50,154 bases of DNA from Oscillospiraceae bacterium (GTDB lineage Bacteria; Bacillota; Clostridia; Oscillospirales; Acutalibacteraceae). The notes under the pieces were generated by a model. That model had not been told where the DNA came from. It did no database searches and saw only the letters and a list, made by a program, of their open reading frames with translations. Positions 1 through 11,645 of this stretch are shown here, in pieces. How positions within the stretch are numbered: the stretch's first letter is position 1; each line of letters opens with the position of its first letter. The stretch covers positions 1 to 50,154 of the forward strand of contig SVPB01000003.1 in the NCBI GenBank assembly GCA_015066065.1, written 5' to 3'. Position numbers and translations under genes: made by a program.

Positions 1-1765
1 ACCCCTCATTTCAAAATGACAGTCATAAAGCATTTCAAAATGTAAATAGGAACGCTTTGCTCATTTCGAAATGAAAGTCATATATCATTTCAAAACGAAG
101 GGCATAAAAAATTGCTTTCAGAGATTGCGCTGACCCAAACTCGAAATGAAAGTACTCTCGAACGGATGGTCAGCACAATCCTTTTTTGAGGGAATGAAAG
201 TAATTTCAAAATATCATTTCAAAACTATTGTCATAGAGCATATCGAAAAGTAAATCATCAATCATACAAGAGCCATATTTAAGGGAAAGTAATAATAAAA
301 TGTTATCTTTAATTAATCTATAATTACTCTATATGGCTCTTAAAAGGAAAGTTCCGCAGGGCATAATACACCCACTGTCAATGGTGTGCACGAACCTTCA
401 TTTCTTACTGATTCTTTATTGACGCGGGGTATTATGCCCTGCTCATCTCGGCTCTCCGACTGCGTCTCCGAGCCGTTTCTATCTGACTTCGTCCAATAGA
501 AACGGCTCGGCTCCCAAAAAGAGAGTCATAAATCATTTCTAAAGGACAATCATCTATCATCATAGAAATGATAGTCATAGCACCTGCTTTGTAGTTTGTG
601 TGTTATCTTCTTCGGCTTCCTGCAGCTTGTCATTCATAATACGAATGACAACTTGCAGAAAGCCGAAAAGCTTTAATCTTGTCCAAGTTTATACTTGGCG
701 CAGGTGCAACTTTCTCTCGAAGAGACAGTCATAAATCATCCCGAAGCGAAAGTTCTTGTGCGATATTCTGCTGTAAAATAAGGTTAGTACTTGGCTTAAT
801 CTATTTTGCTTTCATCGCAAGATTAATAGATTTTCCGTGCGTGTTCTCTTGAAATCCAAGAGTGTAAATAACCTTGTATTATTTACTGACGCTACGCCGA
901 GTGCAAGGCATTTCAGCCCAGCCGAGACTAAACAACTCGTTCGGCGGGGATTTTCATTTTGTATTTAAACTACGATTAAATCCCGGAAACTTCGTATGCA
1001 ATTCCCATAAGAGACGGAGATTCCCTTAATGGACGGTAGCACCACCGCTTGAGCAGTTTTATTTACCGACGAAACTCTCAAACGTCGTGGATTCCATAAT
1101 TTTCGTCAATAACTTAAGGCTGAATCCAAGCCGTCGTTACGCACTTATTTTCGTTCACAGATTGCCATAAGTGAAAGCAGATCTGTATATTGCACTTTGC
1201 ATCTTCGCCCATTGTGCACAAGTGGTTTTGTCACACTGCACCATCCGGTCTGCCGTGTGCGCAGGTTCGCAGTCGAACATCCTTGTTTCATAACGGCTCT
1301 GCTATCCGCACATTTTAGTTCACATTGCCTTTGTGAAGGGCTTGTATATCACAGCTTTTCCTATTCCTTTGGACCACCGCGTGAAAGTGGGTTCTGATTT
1401 ATTGCGGGAAATCATAAAACCGAGCAACGTAATAGGTCGATTAAAAATGTTTCGCCTATCTTCCATATATCACCCTGTCCGCTGCCGTAACAGTGACAGC
1501 TCTTTAATTCCGTATTTCCAGTTCTTCGGTCCTACGGATAATCAGCCTTAGAGCATCGACTGATGAAGTTATACCTTAACTTCAAAGGGTTCTCTGCTAG
1601 TGATTTACAGCCTGCCGCAGAACTCAGACTGCTGTACTCGGCACCAATGCTTTGGCGCAACTAACTTCCCACGTCACATACAATCATTTTGAACCACCTT
1701 CCTTTATGCGTTTATCTTGTTCCCGTCACTTACCGGAGAACAAGACATAAAAAGAAGGCAAAAAG
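1..1765 (-). ncRNA. Candidate large structured non-coding RNA region (strand inferred from promoter at 1938-1966)
   Basis: No convincing ORF; many perfect inverted repeats, e.g. 268-278/331-341, 356-369/429-442, 470-482/496-508, 580-587/700-707, 610-635/643-670, 1142-1148/1167-1173, 1565-1571/1577-1583; recurring AGTCATAnAnCATTTC linker motif. Confidence 0.45.
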
Positions 1766-2438: not shown

Positions 2439-2717
2439 TTATCGGAACAAATCTGAATGACTGCCAACTCTGTATAGCATTAAGACAAGAACATCGTCAA
2501 TAACTTCATATACCAGCAACCAATCAGGTTCTATATGGCATTCTCGGCAACCTTTGTAATTACCGCTTAAATCGTGATCGCGATATTTTTCTTCCAAAGG
2601 TTCGCCATTGGCCAACTTTTCAATTACTGCAAAAAGTTTTTCCGTATCCTTACCTTGCTTTTTGGCGAGTTTTAAATCCTTTTTGAACTGTGTTGTAAAT
2701 CTAACTTCGTACTTCAT
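2439..2717 (-). CDS. Type II toxin, YafQ/RelE family
   Basis: 92 aa; FTTQFKKDLKLAKKQGKD...LSGNYKGCRECHIEPDWLLVYEV...LVLMLYRVGSHSDLF matches the YafQ family; overlaps the antitoxin gene. Confidence 0.9.
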   Translation of the reverse strand: MKYEVRFTTQFKKDLKLAKKQGKDTEKLFAVIEKLANGEPLEEKYRDHDLSGNYKGCRECHIEPDWLLVYEVIDDVLVLMLYRVGSHSDLFR

Positions 2718-2986
2718 ACTTCAAGTGCCGCCCTTAAATCTGCCATATTACCATAACCGGTTGCGGTTTTATCATAGGCAATAGTTCTGCCTTCACGGAT
2801 AGCAGCGGCGGTAGTCTCGTTAGGAACATTTAGTTTTACTTCAAAAGGAATACCATTCTCTCTGATAGCCTGTCTTAAAAAGATATTAACAGCAGTAGTC
2901 ATATTAAGCCCTAAAGCGTCAAAAATCTTTTCAGCCTGTGCTTTAATTTCCTTATCCGTCCGAATATTTAAATTAGTAGACTCCAT
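2714..2986 (-). CDS. Type II antitoxin, RelB/DinJ family
   Basis: Start MESTNLNIRTDKEIKAQAEKIFDALGLNMTTAVNIFLRQAI at 2986 with SD GGAGGTG; ribbon-helix-helix RelB/DinJ. Confidence 0.9.
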   Translation of the reverse strand: MESTNLNIRTDKEIKAQAEKIFDALGLNMTTAVNIFLRQAIRENGIPFEVKLNVPNETTAAAIREGRTIAYDKTATGYGNMADLRAALEV

Positions 2987-3233
2987 ATAATACACCTCCG
3001 TTATTATTCTATGCATATTGTAACACATAATGCACACAATGTCAACACAAAATGTTGGTGTTATAACGAATTATACCAATCTTAAAACTAACTAATATTA
3101 CATTTTATCACTGAATGAAAAAATTGACTAATCATACATTTTCTTAATCTTGCTTACTATCTTGCTTACTATCTTGCTAAAAATCAATAAACATATCAAA
3201 ATATATTGATTTTTCTTTAAGCAGATAAAAACA

Positions 3234-3276: not shown

Positions 3277-4491
3277 TTATTGTTTTTTCTTAATCAAAGC
3301 ATTTCCAAAATATCCACCGACCACACCAATAGCAAGTGCACCAACACCAACTATGAGTAGCCACCACCAAGCAATACCGCCTTCGGTTTTTGGAGTAGCG
3401 TCGGTATCGGGTTGAGTGTCAACCGGTTCGTCTGTAGAGGGTTCATCAGGAAGTTCTTCTACAGAACCGTCATGGGCTGCTGCACGTTTTACGATTACGG
3501 TGTACGTTTTCTTATCGCCATTTTCAGCTGTGCAAATTACCTTAACAGGATTATCTTGACCTGCAGCAAGGTTGTCGCCGCCTTCTACTGCAACAGAAGC
3601 TTTACCATCTACCGCTGAACCACCAATTTTAATACTGGTTGTTTCATAAGGCAACCAAACCACATATTGAGTGGTATCGGTATTAAATGCAGGAGAAAGT
3701 AAGAATCCGTCTACAGAAATGCCCGAAAGTTTATTGTTGTCACTTGCCTTATAATTCGGATCCTGCGCTCTTTTTACAGAAATGGTATAGGTTTTCTTAG
3801 CACCGTTTTCTGCTGTTACAGTAACCGTCACCTTGGTTGTTCCGTTAGCAGTAAGATTAGGGCTATTAACTGAAACCTTTGCCTTAGAATCTGCGGCAGT
3901 AGCACTAACATTAAGCTTAGACACCTCAAACGGAACGTTAGCGGTATAGTTTGTTGTGCCTGCTGAGAATGCAGGAGATATCGTAGCATTACTTACGGTA
4001 AGACTTGCAAGATTGTTATCGGTTGCGAGAGGTGCGGCGACTGTAGTCGAATATGTAACAGTACCAACATTGGCATCTGCACTACCGTCAGAAGCTTTAA
4101 CACCGGTATAAGAGATTTTGATATTTGTGCCTGCCGCAACAGATTTTACCTTAAATGTAGCAGTAAATAAAGTTTTGTTGCCGTTTATAGGATTGCTTAA
4201 ATTGTTATCATATGCAACAAAATTATTACCGTTAAATTCAACCGCCCAAGGGGAACCAATCTTTTGAGTTGTTCCAGACAGGGTGACCTGATTGCTATCA
4301 TAAGACAGTGTGCCTGAGGCGCCGAAAATTCCGCTACCATTCAGATTAAAACTTAATGTTATGGTATCGCCTGCACGAACTGTGCCAGGACCGGTTAAAC
4401 TTGCACTTGCGCTTGCTGCCGAAACAGTGATCGGCAACATTAACGCAAGGGTTAAAACCAAAACTGTTAAAATTGAAATTACTTTTTTCAT
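3277..4491 (-). CDS. Membrane-anchored cohesin-domain protein with two cadherin-like beta-sandwich domains
   Basis: Signal peptide; cohesin-like SLTGPGTVRAGDTITLSFNLNGSGIFGASGTLSYDSNQVTL...ATFKVKS; two repeats LxxLTVSNATISPAFSAGTTNYTANVP / LSGISVDGFLLSPAFNTDTTQYVVWLP; acidic/Thr linker; C-terminal TM and KKK. Confidence 0.85.
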   Translation of the reverse strand: MKKVISILTVLVLTLALMLPITVSAASASASLTGPGTVRAGDTITLSFNLNGSGIFGASGTLSYDSNQVTLSGTTQKIGSPWAVEFNGNNFVAYDNNLSNPINGNKTLFTATFKVKSVAAGTNIKISYTGVKASDGSADANVGTVTYSTTVAAPLATDNNLASLTVSNATISPAFSAGTTNYTANVPFEVSKLNVSATAADSKAKVSVNSPNLTANGTTKVTVTVTAENGAKKTYTISVKRAQDPNYKASDNNKLSGISVDGFLLSPAFNTDTTQYVVWLPYETTSIKIGGSAVDGKASVAVEGGDNLAAGQDNPVKVICTAENGDKKTYTVIVKRAAAHDGSVEELPDEPSTDEPVDTQPDTDATPKTEGGIAWWWLLIVGVGALAIGVVGGYFGNALIKKKQ

Positions 4492-4502: not shown

Positions 4503-7500
4503 TTATCTTGCGGTGATACTGCCTTTACCAAGAATCTTGGCTTTAACCTGAATAAAGTCTGTAATAGAAATTCCACTATCACCATTTGTGTTGGCTGCAG
4601 TAGCATACACACCCGTTAAAGTTGACTTGTTCAGTATATGTGCCTTTATAGCTATCATATCTGTAACTGAAATGGAACCATCTCCGTTGGTATCACCCGT
4701 AACAATAACTGTGTAAGATGTTTTTACAGTATTTCCATCCATAATCTTAACGACCATTCCGGTACCAACCGCAGTGTTGCCACTAACCTCAGAGCTGCCT
4801 TTATAAACCTTGCAGTAAGAACCTTCGTTAAGTCCGGACAACAACGAAGAAACCGTTGTGCCTGCAGTTATCTTGCTAATATTGTTACCACTTATGGTGT
4901 GTTTTGAAGACGTAATTGCGGAAGGAACTTTTGCTTTTACTGAAATTGTGAAGGTGTCAACTTTACCACAATGCTCAACAGTTACAGTTTGTGTTCCGGC
5001 GTTCATACCATACGAGGCTGACCAATTTGATGATATTATTGCTGTTGTGTTATTATCATAATAAGCTGTTATAACCATTCCCGAAAAATCCATATCATCG
5101 TGTTCAACATAGGATAATTTTGTGGGCTTTGAAGTAACTTTTATTGATAAAAGATTTTTGCTGTAGGTTGCTTCACAGGTATCACATTCATAATAAATGT
5201 TTCCATTTTTGTCAGTCTTGCCTTTGTCCCAAATATGTATGCCAGTCGCTTCAATGATGTTTTGTTTTACTAGTACCTCTTCGCAAACAGAACAATGCTT
5301 TCCATCAGTTAGGCCTGTTTTGGTACAAGTCGGCTCAACACGATTATCTAAAACCTCTGTGTGACCTAGTGCATCTGGGAAACGCTCTTCTTGATAATCA
5401 CAAAACTTACATTTGTAAATTTCATGTCCTGTTTCAGTACAATTAGGCTTTTTTACGGTTTCTAACAATTCCAGTTGATGTTTGCCTTCTTCAATAAGCA
5501 GTAATGATTTAGAAAGCACATTTCCTGTTTTATCTATTGCGCGCAAAATCACATAACCGGGTTTTAACGGAGAAATGGTAGCTGCAGAAGTCTTTTTAAT
5601 CGAGGAACCCCAAGTAATAGTACTAGAGGAAACATTAGTTATTTTGGCAGTTGTTTCATCGGATATGATAAAATCAAAGTCCTTGTTCGCTTCATACTCT
5701 AATGTGATAGTTTCATCAGTTGTTAGTTTGTAATCATATACCAAACTTAGATTCGTAACATCAAAAGTTAGGCTTCCTCCATTATAAGTAACCGTAATAG
5801 TTTGTTCTCCAGCTTTAGTCTTATCGTATCCCGACACCATGGAAGGAATCACATCTATTTCTTCAACAGTTCCGTCGTTATAAATTTCAGCAATTTTAGC
5901 ACCTGATATATCAAAATCTTCTAACCCAACATAATACTCCGTTTTATATGGTAAGGATACTATACTTATACCTTGTACCTTTTGGATAAAGTTTATGCTG
6001 TTTGTAATTAACTCAGGATATGTATAATCTGATCCTGTTGGCATTCTCCAAACATTTTCAAAATCAAAACCGCTAAATGTAGTTTGTGATTGCAAGTGTT
6101 CAGATGTACATTTAATCGCACCTTCATCGCCGTATTCCTCGCCAGAACTAACGTTATTTAAATAATAACAATTTATAAATTTTGCATCCGGATTGCTTAG
6201 ATCAACAAGTAGTCCCGAAATTGCACCGCCTGCTCGTTCGGATGTAATATAGCCAACATTGTAACACGACTGAATTATATTATGATTTGTTCCGGCTATT
6301 CCACCGGCATACGAATATGAGTCATCACCATTTATCGCTCGAATATATCCTGTGTTAAAACAATCTTGTATTAATCCTGAGTTTGTACCGGCTATTCCAC
6401 CGGCATCATCTGTCGAATATATATATCCTGTGTTATAACAATTTTTAACAGTTCCACTATACACTACACCAACAATGCCGCCCAATGTGGTTGAACCGGT
6501 TTCATCTTCAATTTTTATATCGCAAGTATTAAAACAATTCTCAATAATTCCATTATCATTACGCCCAGACACACCGCCCGCACTTCCATACTTAATCGAA
6601 ATGTGTCCGTCTTCTATGCCTAAATTTTTAATGGTTCCACTATTGGTGTTAAATAAACCTGCGAAAACTGTCTGTTCGGATTGAATGTTTATAATAATGT
6701 TTTTTACACTATATCCATTTCCATCAAATACACCTGTGAAAGATTTATTCGTGGTTCCTGAACCGATCGGCTTCCAACCAGTTCCATTGTTATAAAATTT
6801 ACCATTTACTTCAAAATCAGACTCTAAGAATTCTATGTTTTTTACTAATTTAAAATGAGAAGATAAATAATTTCTTGTGTTATTCAAATGAGATGCACAA
6901 GCAATATAATAAGGAGATGCTTCCGTTCCATTTCCACCATTAAATGTTGCGTTTTCATTTACAATAAAACAGTCGACACCCTTTATTGTGGGATATTTGT
7001 AGTAATTACCCTCTGCAAATTCCCAAATAGATTCAAAATCAAAATTTATGTATGTGGATTGGTTCTTCAAATTTGAAAGGGAACGTTCTGATGTCCCAGT
7101 AATAGTTTTTCCACCTTCAATAGCAGGATAAAAGCAATCTTTTGCTGTAACTCCACTAGCATATGCAATAATTCCGCCTTTTTCAGCAGAACTAATTGTG
7201 CCCACGTTATAACAATTACTGATTTTAAGTCCGTTAGAGTATCCGACTATACCACCAACTCTACCATAAGTTCCATCTGCCGATAATTCTCCTGCATTAA
7301 AACAGTCTTTAATAACATCTTTAGAATTGGTGAGCGCAACGATACCGCCAACTTCGCTATCATAAGAAGCGTAGGAATTTCCAGGAAGTTGTTCAGAAAA
7401 CGATATGCCATTTAGTTTGCCAAAATTAGCGCAGCTAGTTATTTCGGTTTCAACTATATCTCCTGCTATTCCACCAATATTGTGAGTTCCAGTAAGTTCC

Positions 7501-8240
7501 CCATAATTAACAGATTCGCTTATGCTACCTTCTTGAACTGCACCACATATTCCACCGACTCGGTCAAAGGCGCCATCACATGTAATTTTTACATCACTTT
7601 GGCAGTCGATTATATCTGCCCAAGCTGTTCTTCCACAAATACCTCCAACATATACACTTTCATAATTGGGTGCTGTATCAATTACAATAGTTCCATTTGT
7701 TTTACAATTCTTTATGGCTGTGCTTGAAGCGGAACCGGAAACGCATCCCACATCAGCCCGTTTTGATAATTTAAGCGAAATATTGACAGAGCGCATTTCT
7801 AGATCTCTTACTTCGCCAGATACATCACCAAAGAGACCTATATATCCCAAATTAGAAGAATCACCATATATCGTAAGACCTTCTATGTAGTGACCGTTTC
7901 CATCAAAGGTTCCTGTAAAAGACCAAAAATAAGAACCGCTCGTCGTAATTATGGCTTCCCAACCATTTCCATTATTATAAAAATCTCCCCCTACGGCAAA
8001 ATCCGTAGCAGAAAATTCAATATCATCAATCAATTTATAATGTGCATCAAGTTCATTACGAACATTATTTAAGTGTTCCTTTGTTTCGATCAAGTAAGGA
8101 TCAGCTTGTGTACCACTACCACCAGCAAATTGTGTTGTTACTGCATTTGCCGTTATTGCCCCCAATGGCAAAGTAGTAATAATCATAGCAACGGAAAGCA
8201 ACACCGCAAATAGTTGTTTCCCTTTCTTTTTAATCTTCAT
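4503..8240 (-). CDS. Secreted multidomain GLUG-repeat protein with Ig-like domains and C-terminal type I dockerin
   Basis: Start MKIKKKGKQLFAVLLSVAMIITTLPLGAITANA at 8240 with SD GGAGGAGG; repeated GGIVGYSNGLKISNCYNVG-type GLUG motifs; C-term GDTNGDGSISVTDMIAIKAHIL...NTNGDSGISITDFIQVKAKIL dockerin repeats. Confidence 0.85.
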   Translation of the reverse strand: MKIKKKGKQLFAVLLSVAMIITTLPLGAITANAVTTQFAGGSGTQADPYLIETKEHLNNVRNELDAHYKLIDDIEFSATDFAVGGDFYNNGNGWEAIITTSGSYFWSFTGTFDGNGHYIEGLTIYGDSSNLGYIGLFGDVSGEVRDLEMRSVNISLKLSKRADVGCVSGSASSTAIKNCKTNGTIVIDTAPNYESVYVGGICGRTAWADIIDCQSDVKITCDGAFDRVGGICGAVQEGSISESVNYGELTGTHNIGGIAGDIVETEITSCANFGKLNGISFSEQLPGNSYASYDSEVGGIVALTNSKDVIKDCFNAGELSADGTYGRVGGIVGYSNGLKISNCYNVGTISSAEKGGIIAYASGVTAKDCFYPAIEGGKTITGTSERSLSNLKNQSTYINFDFESIWEFAEGNYYKYPTIKGVDCFIVNENATFNGGNGTEASPYYIACASHLNNTRNYLSSHFKLVKNIEFLESDFEVNGKFYNNGTGWKPIGSGTTNKSFTGVFDGNGYSVKNIIINIQSEQTVFAGLFNTNSGTIKNLGIEDGHISIKYGSAGGVSGRNDNGIIENCFNTCDIKIEDETGSTTLGGIVGVVYSGTVKNCYNTGYIYSTDDAGGIAGTNSGLIQDCFNTGYIRAINGDDSYSYAGGIAGTNHNIIQSCYNVGYITSERAGGAISGLLVDLSNPDAKFINCYYLNNVSSGEEYGDEGAIKCTSEHLQSQTTFSGFDFENVWRMPTGSDYTYPELITNSINFIQKVQGISIVSLPYKTEYYVGLEDFDISGAKIAEIYNDGTVEEIDVIPSMVSGYDKTKAGEQTITVTYNGGSLTFDVTNLSLVYDYKLTTDETITLEYEANKDFDFIISDETTAKITNVSSSTITWGSSIKKTSAATISPLKPGYVILRAIDKTGNVLSKSLLLIEEGKHQLELLETVKKPNCTETGHEIYKCKFCDYQEERFPDALGHTEVLDNRVEPTCTKTGLTDGKHCSVCEEVLVKQNIIEATGIHIWDKGKTDKNGNIYYECDTCEATYSKNLLSIKVTSKPTKLSYVEHDDMDFSGMVITAYYDNNTTAIISSNWSASYGMNAGTQTVTVEHCGKVDTFTISVKAKVPSAITSSKHTISGNNISKITAGTTVSSLLSGLNEGSYCKVYKGSSEVSGNTAVGTGMVVKIMDGNTVKTSYTVIVTGDTNGDGSISVTDMIAIKAHILNKSTLTGVYATAANTNGDSGISITDFIQVKAKILGKGSITAR

Positions 8241-8271: not shown

Positions 8272-8482
8272 TTAAAAAAGTGCGCCAACCGAAGCCGACG
8301 CACCGAAAAACGCAAACCCCGATTGTCGCCAAACAAATTTCAAGTATGAGAGGTTTCCCTACACAATAACCTGATGGAATTTGCGTTTTTACCAAATTCA
8401 CATGATTATTGTGCGCAAAAAGGGTATACTTACCCCTTTGCAAGGAAATCAACCATCATACTTTTATAAAATTTGTTTGGCA
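8272..8482 (-). promoter_or_regulatory. Riboswitch-like 5' leader upstream of the dockerin gene
   Basis: Closing stem 8456-8463/8342-8349, stem 8406-8413/8362-8369 with inner 8393-8399/8377-8383, a GC-rich hairpin, and an alternative 11-bp pairing 8380-8390/8306-8316 ahead of a terminator. Confidence 0.6.
8274..8303 (-). terminator. Intrinsic terminator with UUCG tetraloop in the leader
   Basis: Minus strand GTGCGTCGGC-TTCG-GTTGGCGCAC-TTTTTT. Confidence 0.85.
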
Positions 8483-8488
8483 TTTATT

Positions 8489-8497
8489 ATTATATCA
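8489..8497 (-). promoter_or_regulatory. Extended -10 promoter element of the leader
   Basis: Minus strand TGATATAAT (TGnTATAAT); weak -35. Confidence 0.55.
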
Positions 8498-9896: not shown

Positions 9897-11645
9897 ATGG
9901 ATGTACATTCTGTCCGTCAGATGATGAGGACTAAAAGTATATACGAAATACCTATGCGCGTTACATTCTACGCCCGTGTATCTTCCGAAAAGGACGAGCA
10001 GTTAAACTCTCTTGACAACCAGATATCCTATTATCGTAACTTTATAAAGAAAAACGCTAACTGGGAGTTTGTTGAGGGATATATAGACGAAGGTCTTTCG
10101 GGTATGAGCACCAAAAAGCGCGAGAATTTTCACAATATGATTAGTGATGCAAAGGCAGGACTATTTGACCTTGTTATCACAAAGGAAATTACTCGTTTTG
10201 CCCGTAATACTCTTGACAGTATTCAATACACTCGTGACCTACTTTCCTACGGTGTAGGTGTATTCTTTCAGAACGATAACATCAATACTCTTGATGAAGA
10301 TAGTGAGCTTCGACTTACTATTATGTCAGGTATTGCTCAGGACGAATTACGCAAGTTGTCTTCCCGTATCAAATTTGGTCATCAAGAGGCCATAAAGAAA
10401 AATGTTGTCCTTGGTAACAGCCGTATTTTCGGCTACCGTAAGGACAACAAAAGGTTAGTTATTGACGAAAAAGAAGCAGAAATGGTTCGCGAATTATTTG
10501 AACTTTACGCAACAGACCAATACAGTATGAAGCAGATTGAGGAAATCTTTTGGAACAAGGGTTACCGCAACAACAATGGTAAACGTATTTGCCACAGTAC
10601 AATGTCTAATACCATTTCAAACCCAAAGTACAAGGGCTATTATGTAGGCAACAAGGTAAAGATAATTGATATGTTTACCAAAAAGCAAAAGTTTTTACCG
10701 CCTGAGGAATGGGTTATGTTTAAGGACGAAACCGGCGAAATTGTCCCTGCCATTGTCAGCGAAGACCTTTGGGAAAAAGCCAACGCTGTTCTTAGAAGGC
10801 GTAGCCATGATGTAAAGAACAGACAGAATCTTTGCAACCACCCGAATCTGCTAACTGGTAAAATGTATTGCACCCATTGTGGAAAGCTCTACTACCGCAA
10901 GGATAGCAAAGACCGCAAAGGCAATGTGTTGTCACGTTGGATATGTAGTGGCAAAATCAACAACGGCACTGATTCTTGTCCCTCGTTCACTATTTACGAA
11001 GAAGAAATCAAAGAAGTTCTTACTGAGGTTTTTAAAGACACTGCCGAGGATGCAAGATTGATTATTGAGGAATATTCAAATATGTATGCAGAAGTTTTAG
11101 CAAAAGACACTTCATCTGGGGAACTGCAAAAGCTCAAAGACCGACTTGATTTTTTATCAAAGAAAAAATCAAAGTTGCTTGAGTATAATATTGCGGGTCA
11201 AATCAACGACCGAGATTTTGTTGAGATGAACAAACAAATTTCGGACGAGTCTGCTGAGGTTTACTCTACTATTCAGGAAATTGAATATGAAATCAATTCA
11301 CGAACTGAATATAAGCAAAGAATAGAAGAGATACGAAATATTTTGCTTAAAGCCGAAAATGAAGCGAGCCAGAATATGATTGACTCGGCATTCATAAACA
11401 GGTATATTGATAAAATTTACGTTACACCTATTGAAGAAGGCACTGTCGAAATTTCGGTAAAGATATTCTCCGGACAGACGGTTGAGAAACATTTGTCCAA
11501 CCTACGAAAACGCCATAAATCTATTAAAAATGCCGAAAAAACCGATGAAAACGAGTCCTCTGATGACGGTATTGTAGATATTGGCAGTACGGGACACACT
11601 TTTAAGAAGATGATCAAGGCTTACGAGGAGAACAACCTGAAGTAA
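9897..11645 (+). CDS. Large serine recombinase / site-specific integrase
   Basis: Resolvase N-term RVTFYARVSSEKDEQLNSLDNQ, SGIAQDELRKLSSRIKFGHQ, recombinase domain, zinc ribbon CTHCGKLYYRK...WICSG, coiled coil. Confidence 0.95.
   Translation: MDVHSVRQMMRTKSIYEIPMRVTFYARVSSEKDEQLNSLDNQISYYRNFIKKNANWEFVEGYIDEGLSGMSTKKRENFHNMISDAKAGLFDLVITKEITRFARNTLDSIQYTRDLLSYGVGVFFQNDNINTLDEDSELRLTIMSGIAQDELRKLSSRIKFGHQEAIKKNVVLGNSRIFGYRKDNKRLVIDEKEAEMVRELFELYATDQYSMKQIEEIFWNKGYRNNNGKRICHSTMSNTISNPKYKGYYVGNKVKIIDMFTKKQKFLPPEEWVMFKDETGEIVPAIVSEDLWEKANAVLRRRSHDVKNRQNLCNHPNLLTGKMYCTHCGKLYYRKDSKDRKGNVLSRWICSGKINNGTDSCPSFTIYEEEIKEVLTEVFKDTAEDARLIIEEYSNMYAEVLAKDTSSGELQKLKDRLDFLSKKKSKLLEYNIAGQINDRDFVEMNKQISDESAEVYSTIQEIEYEINSRTEYKQRIEEIRNILLKAENEASQNMIDSAFINRYIDKIYVTPIEEGTVEISVKIFSGQTVEKHLSNLRKRHKSIKNAEKTDENESSDDGIVDIGSTGHTFKKMIKAYEENNLK

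Follow-up and report, generated by a model that had tools for sequence, protein, structure and literature searches.

The window is the whole 50,154-nucleotide stretch of Oscillospiraceae DNA that we analysed. On its minus strand lies a dockerin-cohesin operon of two genes. The first (positions 4503-8240) encodes a secreted protein of 1245 amino acids with GLUG, Big_3 and dockerin type I domains; the second (3277-4491), separated by an 11-nt gap, encodes cohesin-like and cadherin-like domains, the cohesin match being barely above the cut-off (25.4 versus 24.1 bits). Just downstream of the operon there is a RelB/YafQ-type toxin-antitoxin pair (2439-3037, minus strand). On the other side, a large serine recombinase gene (9897-11645, plus strand) adjoins an extended run of genes that apparently belong to a prophage (approximately 12000-50154), among them a UvsX-like recombinase and a family-A-like DNA polymerase, and the unit of leader and dockerin gene thus sits beside an integrated phage.

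The operon is preceded by a minus-strand leader at 8481-8274, and all of the features named in the original prediction of a riboswitch-like leader are found there. The extended -10 promoter element TGATATAAT (8497-8489) lies where that prediction had put it; it has the form TGnTAnnnT, and 132 of 154 homologous leaders carry such a box at most 20 nt ahead of P1, with a spacing peak at 6 nt. Transcription probably starts at or adjoining 8481, where P1 begins. The minimum free energy (MFE) of the leader is -82.7 kcal/mol, compared with -48.5 +/- 4.2 kcal/mol for dinucleotide shuffles (z = -8.1; none of 200 shuffles was as good).

The outermost stem, P1, is 13 bp long and pairs GCCAAACAAATTT (8481-8469) with AAATTTGTTTGGC (8340-8328), as supported by pair counts in 47 leaders. 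The original prediction had overlooked it, while correctly describing the junction stems that it encloses. These are P2, the proposed closing stem, in which AAGTATGA (8463-8456) pairs with TCATACTT (8349-8342); the hairpin P3, AAAGGGGTAAGTATACCCTTTT (8439-8418; AAAGGGGTA..TATACCCTTTT), whose sequence is conserved in part and which is a candidate sensing element; and P4, in which CACAATAATCA (8413-8403) faces GGTTATTGTG (8371-8362). P2 and both strands of P4 are present in the MFE structure. Inside P4 is the inner pairing GAATTTG/CAAATTC. We refer to the GAATTTG strand as W (8399-8393); through CAAATTC it is the local partner of strand X, AAAAACGCAAATTCC (8390-8376).

Directly after P1 follows strand Y, CAATCGGGGTTTGCGTTTTT (8325-8306). 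An alternative pairing of 11 bp between the loop region and the segment before the terminator had been proposed; it exists, but extends over 15 bp (8390-8376 with 8320-8306) and is the X:Y helix, to which we assign the role of an anti-antiterminator. A separate antiterminator, formed by Y with strand Z, had been missed. Z, GGCTTCGGTTG (8296-8286), comprises the loop and the 3' half of the intrinsic terminator, an 11-bp UUCG-capped hairpin (8304-8279) with a T-run to 8274. X and Y thus each have two potential partners (W or Y for X, X or Z for Y), and all four strands are supported by pair counts and by a preference for cognate partners across the family. The end of the T-run is 33 nt from the ATG at 8240, close to the 35 nt originally estimated, and a Shine-Dalgarno sequence, GGAGGAGG, lies at 8257-8250. 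In group-1 leaders (see below) two U-rich tracts flank P3 beside the A-rich strand X (8428-8416 and 8390-8386 in the window); that these tracts could form a U-A-U triple helix with X:Y is pure speculation.

When 60 related genomes were searched with blastn, many leaders of like build were found, several per genome. The genome that contains the window carries one further copy (L031), two in all, and this one too is upstream of a secreted-protein gene. A search pattern of 23 bases, taken from the 3' part of the leader and fixing Y, matched at least 120 stretches of named genomes. Among the matches listed, the titles were uncultured Clostridia, Oscillospiraceae, Ruminococcaceae, Ruminococcus, Eubacterium, Christensenella, Monoglobus and Pumilibacter, with one bare "Bacillota"; the sources were mostly ruminant, deer and rabbit guts, together with at least five viral contigs. 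Close relatives of the leader are seen in viral contigs L171-L175. From 47 leaders we then derived the covariance model R2. It matched 22 of the 60 relatives and 55 of 245 genomes of the class Clostridia, copy numbers in the latter search being lower bounds since few candidates were scored per genome. Within one genus the number of copies is patchy, from 0 to 11 per genome among the 60 relatives. In a phylum-wide sample of 199 genomes, approximately 190 of them outside the class, the sole match was the window's own genome, and none of those outside the class matched. A plasmid collection gave no match, and in a phage collection two unannotated human-faecal records (MT835503.1 and MT835845.1) match the pre-terminator part only.

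The family falls into two subtypes. In group 1, to which the focal leader belongs, the P3 hairpin is GGGAUAnUAUACCC and the tip hairpin reads GAAUUUGnUAAAAAYGCAAAUUCC; group-2 leaders are shorter, and a GUAUUUUUA..UAAAAAUAC-type hairpin holds their A-rich strand. The extended -10 element is common to both groups. Conserved letters cluster in W, X, Y, Z, P1 and P3, and the interior stems are free to vary. Leaders also occur in tandem: L120 has three consecutive copies ahead of a single gene (722-1381, minus strand), and L221 has two copies (1139-1703, plus strand); in L120 two of the three units have one common terminator sequence yet unrelated X and Y strands. In L018, a Gut-1 RNA (RF01706; 848-922, plus strand) lies less than 600 nt from a family leader. 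Movement of leader and gene as one cassette is unsupported: similarity between leaders ends approximately 5 nt past the T-run, and upstream of the leaders the promoter boxes alone are common between copies.

The consensus of X is AAAAAYGCAAAUUCC, that of Y CWAUCGGAGUUUGCGUUUUU and that of Z RCUUCGGUWG, so that Y is complementary both to X, inside the P1 domain, and to Z. The original prediction had made itself dependent on conservation of the junction stems in homologous leaders; the stems are kept, with covariation, and W:X, X:Y, Y:Z and the terminator helix all covary across the family. In 47 group-1 leaders the fraction of paired cells is 97.7% for P1, 97.0% for X:Y, 97.9% for Y:Z and 98.7% for the terminator, compared with 27-51% for slid-partner controls; P1 has changes on both sides in eight of its 13 pairs, and one Y:Z pair occurs as AU (24), UA (14) and UG (5). 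W:X is paired in 90.3% of cells (alignment A2). The corresponding values for 26 group-2 leaders are 97.3% (P1), 92.2% (X:Y) and 86.6% (Y:Z), with slid controls at 32-54%, and here one X:Y pair occurs as GC (13), AU (9) and GU (4). These counts are to be read with the reservation that part of the leader set was collected by the Y-fixing pattern and that kinship among the sequences inflates covariation. A mutual-information ranking that was not guided by the model places P1, the terminator and Y:Z among the top pairs, some of which reflect subclades. RNAalifold on MAFFT alignments recovers P1 and the terminator only, since these alignments do not bring the variable stems P2 and P4 into register.

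As an alignment-free approach, we folded each strand of 75 model hits with its own partner and with the partners of other leaders. The 75 hits are less biased than the pattern set, and include two antisense matches that weaken rather than create the effect. For Y:Z none of 2000 permutations was as good as the own partners in either group. For X:Y the numbers were 9 of 2000 (group 1) and 0 of 2000 (group 2), and for W:X 38 of 2000 and 0 of 2000, respectively; a control pairing of an interior strand with Z showed no preference for own partners. X and Y are nearly constant in group 1, where only 22 of 52 leaders do better than their own row median for X:Y, and the support for this helix comes from the few changes there and from group 2. 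Individual leaders are instructive as well. In L017, L047, L018 and L019 the terminator loops depart from UUCG and are matched by changes in Y, and in L047, L018, L017, L019 and L191 the altered X, Y and Z still fit one another. In L120, two tandem relatives whose X and Y letters are unrelated have X:Y helices of -20.6 and -21.1 kcal/mol, equalled by 2 and 0 of 500 shuffles; in the same two copies, the most divergent ones, Y:Z was not better than with shuffled Y (89 and 71 of 500).

We consider it very probable, judging by these comparisons, that the leaders form an undescribed Clostridia family of cis-acting transcription attenuators working by a relay of W, X, Y and Z, a relay that we infer to operate in cells. 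RNA polymerase would start at P1, and the P1-closed domain would present X, held in its local hairpin with W. If Y captured X, over 15 bp in the focal leader, Z would remain free, the terminator helix of Z with its complement Z' would form and transcription would stop. As X lies inside P1, the X:Y helix would be a pseudoknot. If X were instead kept by W or otherwise blocked, Y would pair with Z over at least 10 bp, the terminator would not form and the gene would be read. The balance between W:X and X:Y would be tipped by a signal that acts on the P1-P4 domain. As the strands emerge in the order X, Y, Z, transcription may stop by default, and a signal keeping X off Y may turn the gene on; it is also conceivable that the sign is reversed, with a ligand stabilising the pseudoknot and so switching the gene off. 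The calculated energies for the focal leader, obtained with folding tools that do not score the pseudoknot, are -17.0 kcal/mol for the terminator state, -17.9 for the antiterminator, -18.6 for X:Y and -6.1 for W:X. With the terminator and antiterminator states less than 1 kcal/mol apart the switch would be finely balanced, with the choice of Y between X and Z being decisive.

Could the leader belong, in diverged form, to one of the known riboswitch classes? Its layout of junction, pseudoknot and terminator is riboswitch-like, but we consider this hardly credible. As the original prediction had it, no known family fits: Rfam 15 gave no match at curated thresholds in the window, nor on the leader in 20 relatives, and permissive scans gave only chance-level matches on the leader, with no recurring family and no believable weak match. 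The sub-threshold matches of the L018 leader, ylbH (E = 0.018, opposite strand) and Phe_leader (E = 0.34), are isolated. The c-di-GMP-I and c-di-GMP-II models have no match in the window or the relatives, and the T-box model none in the window or in 20 relatives. The leader is moreover present in eight genomes of at least 95% completeness that have no GGDEF gene (G013, G024, G025, G042, G046, G056, G057 and G058), which makes c-di-GMP unlikely as a general signal and counts against membership in its riboswitch classes. We found no earlier description of the family in the literature searched, the scope of which did not include a 2017 survey of 224 candidate RNAs.

Gene calls and signal-peptide calls in what follows are heuristic. 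Behind the terminators we identified 109 distinct genes with a Shine-Dalgarno-bearing start within 60 nt, 14-55 nt past the T-run with a sharp peak at 16-20 nt; family-wide, the distance is usually 14-30 nt. The proteins they encode do not belong to any one family (mean column identity 5%). The commonest, at 17 of 109, are LRR_5 surface repeats, followed by EcoRI-type methylases, AMP-binding enzymes, MazE/AbrB-like regulators, RHS, WG repeats and zinc ribbons, and most of the others are unrelated. By a simple heuristic, 59% of the downstream proteins have a signal or membrane N-terminus, compared with 20% of 303 control ORFs, and 21% versus 4% have a lipobox. The description as a leader of the dockerin-cohesin operon is therefore apt for the focal copy, but the family is not restricted to cellulosomal genes. 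EcoRI-type adenine methyltransferases are found behind three leaders (L037, L126 and L129), suggesting that some targets are defence-like.

The regular spacing to these ORFs bears on whether the leader is a stand-alone small RNA whose terminator precedes genes by chance. Its own promoter and terminator frame it, and some copies have no obvious ORF within 60 nt; nevertheless, we regard this as very unlikely given the 109 ORFs and their sharply peaked distance, and coevolution of Y with Z would be pointless in a plain terminator.

What, then, might set the switch? A conserved 5' leader structure lies immediately before the controlled gene, and comparison and energies point to mutually exclusive terminator and antiterminator states tied to an upstream domain. 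By its logic the leader would be a transcription attenuator of the riboswitch kind, in none of the named classes tested, with putative ligand binding. We slightly favour a small molecule or ion as the signal over a protein. The fuller reading, to which we lean only tentatively, at a little under an even chance, is that the leaders constitute a new class of orphan riboswitches or sensor RNAs. Each would be a portable unit of promoter and switch that, by way of a four-helix relay, places accessory genes of gut Clostridia, mostly for surface-exposed products, under a common internal signal.

An RNA-binding protein, be it antiterminator or repressor, that acts on X or the P3 hairpin and drives the attenuator in place of a small ligand is a serious competitor, albeit one we rather doubt. 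Conservation of letters in W, X, Y, Z, P1 and P3 next to variable interior stems would suit a hairpin-reading protein, and very diverse targets would suit a global regulator. However, no regulator gene was found travelling with the leader, and two obvious candidates are encoded by none of the carriers among the 60 relatives: CsrA matches occur in G034, G037, G044 and G048 only, and the CAT_RBD domain in G034, G044, G048 and G049 only, all of them non-carriers, which makes control by CsrA or BglG/SacY-type antitermination unlikely.

A trans-acting or antisense RNA might also set the switch by pairing with X or Y, as in plasmid attenuators such as that of pT181. The relay resembles antisense-driven attenuators, and with several copies per genome and interchangeable X and Y strands cross-talk would be possible. 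We nonetheless think this improbable, as the opposite strand has merely weak consensus promoter matches (9/12), none convincing, and the letters of X and Y drift widely between copies, an ill fit to one common partner in trans.

Our favoured reading, a riboswitch-like attenuator, has precedents among transcription-terminating riboswitches, including the pseudoknotted ZTP, fluoride and preQ1 classes. Like these, the leader has a folded 5' domain, a pseudoknot near an intrinsic terminator, and exclusive terminator and antiterminator upstream of a Shine-Dalgarno sequence and ORF. It differs in that its pseudoknot strand Y would double as the antiterminator strand, in having no Rfam match, and in standing, with as many as 11 copies in a genome, upstream of accessory genes that are unrelated to one another rather than of those for one metabolic pathway. 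The trp leader works by a relay of 1:2, 2:3 and 3:4 pairings, and the pT181 and pIP501 attenuators are controlled by antisense RNA. With these our leader shares the chain of overlapping helices, each pairing excluding the next, but its relay is one step longer (W:X, X:Y, Y:Z, Z:Z') and closed by P1, and neither leader peptide nor antisense RNA was detected; in an unsystematic look at leader ORFs, we noticed no conserved start codon in the alignments. Comparable in setting is the SLH motif, which is likewise a riboswitch candidate of the orphan kind, known from Clostridia as well as other groups and reported mainly before S-layer homology genes (PMC6429828). Both are orphan candidates upstream of surface-protein genes, at least partly in Clostridia; the leader has no match to SLH or to any other Rfam family.

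Approximately one in five of the sampled Clostridia-class genomes carries the leader, many in multiple copies, yet it is absent from the RNA family library searched. The relay offers a clean and testable model of a pseudoknot serving as an anti-antiterminator. The leader appears to place many unrelated accessory genes under one signal, surface adhesins, lipoproteins and cellulosome parts being over-represented among the targets, and the identity of that signal would reveal when these gut bacteria alter their surface.
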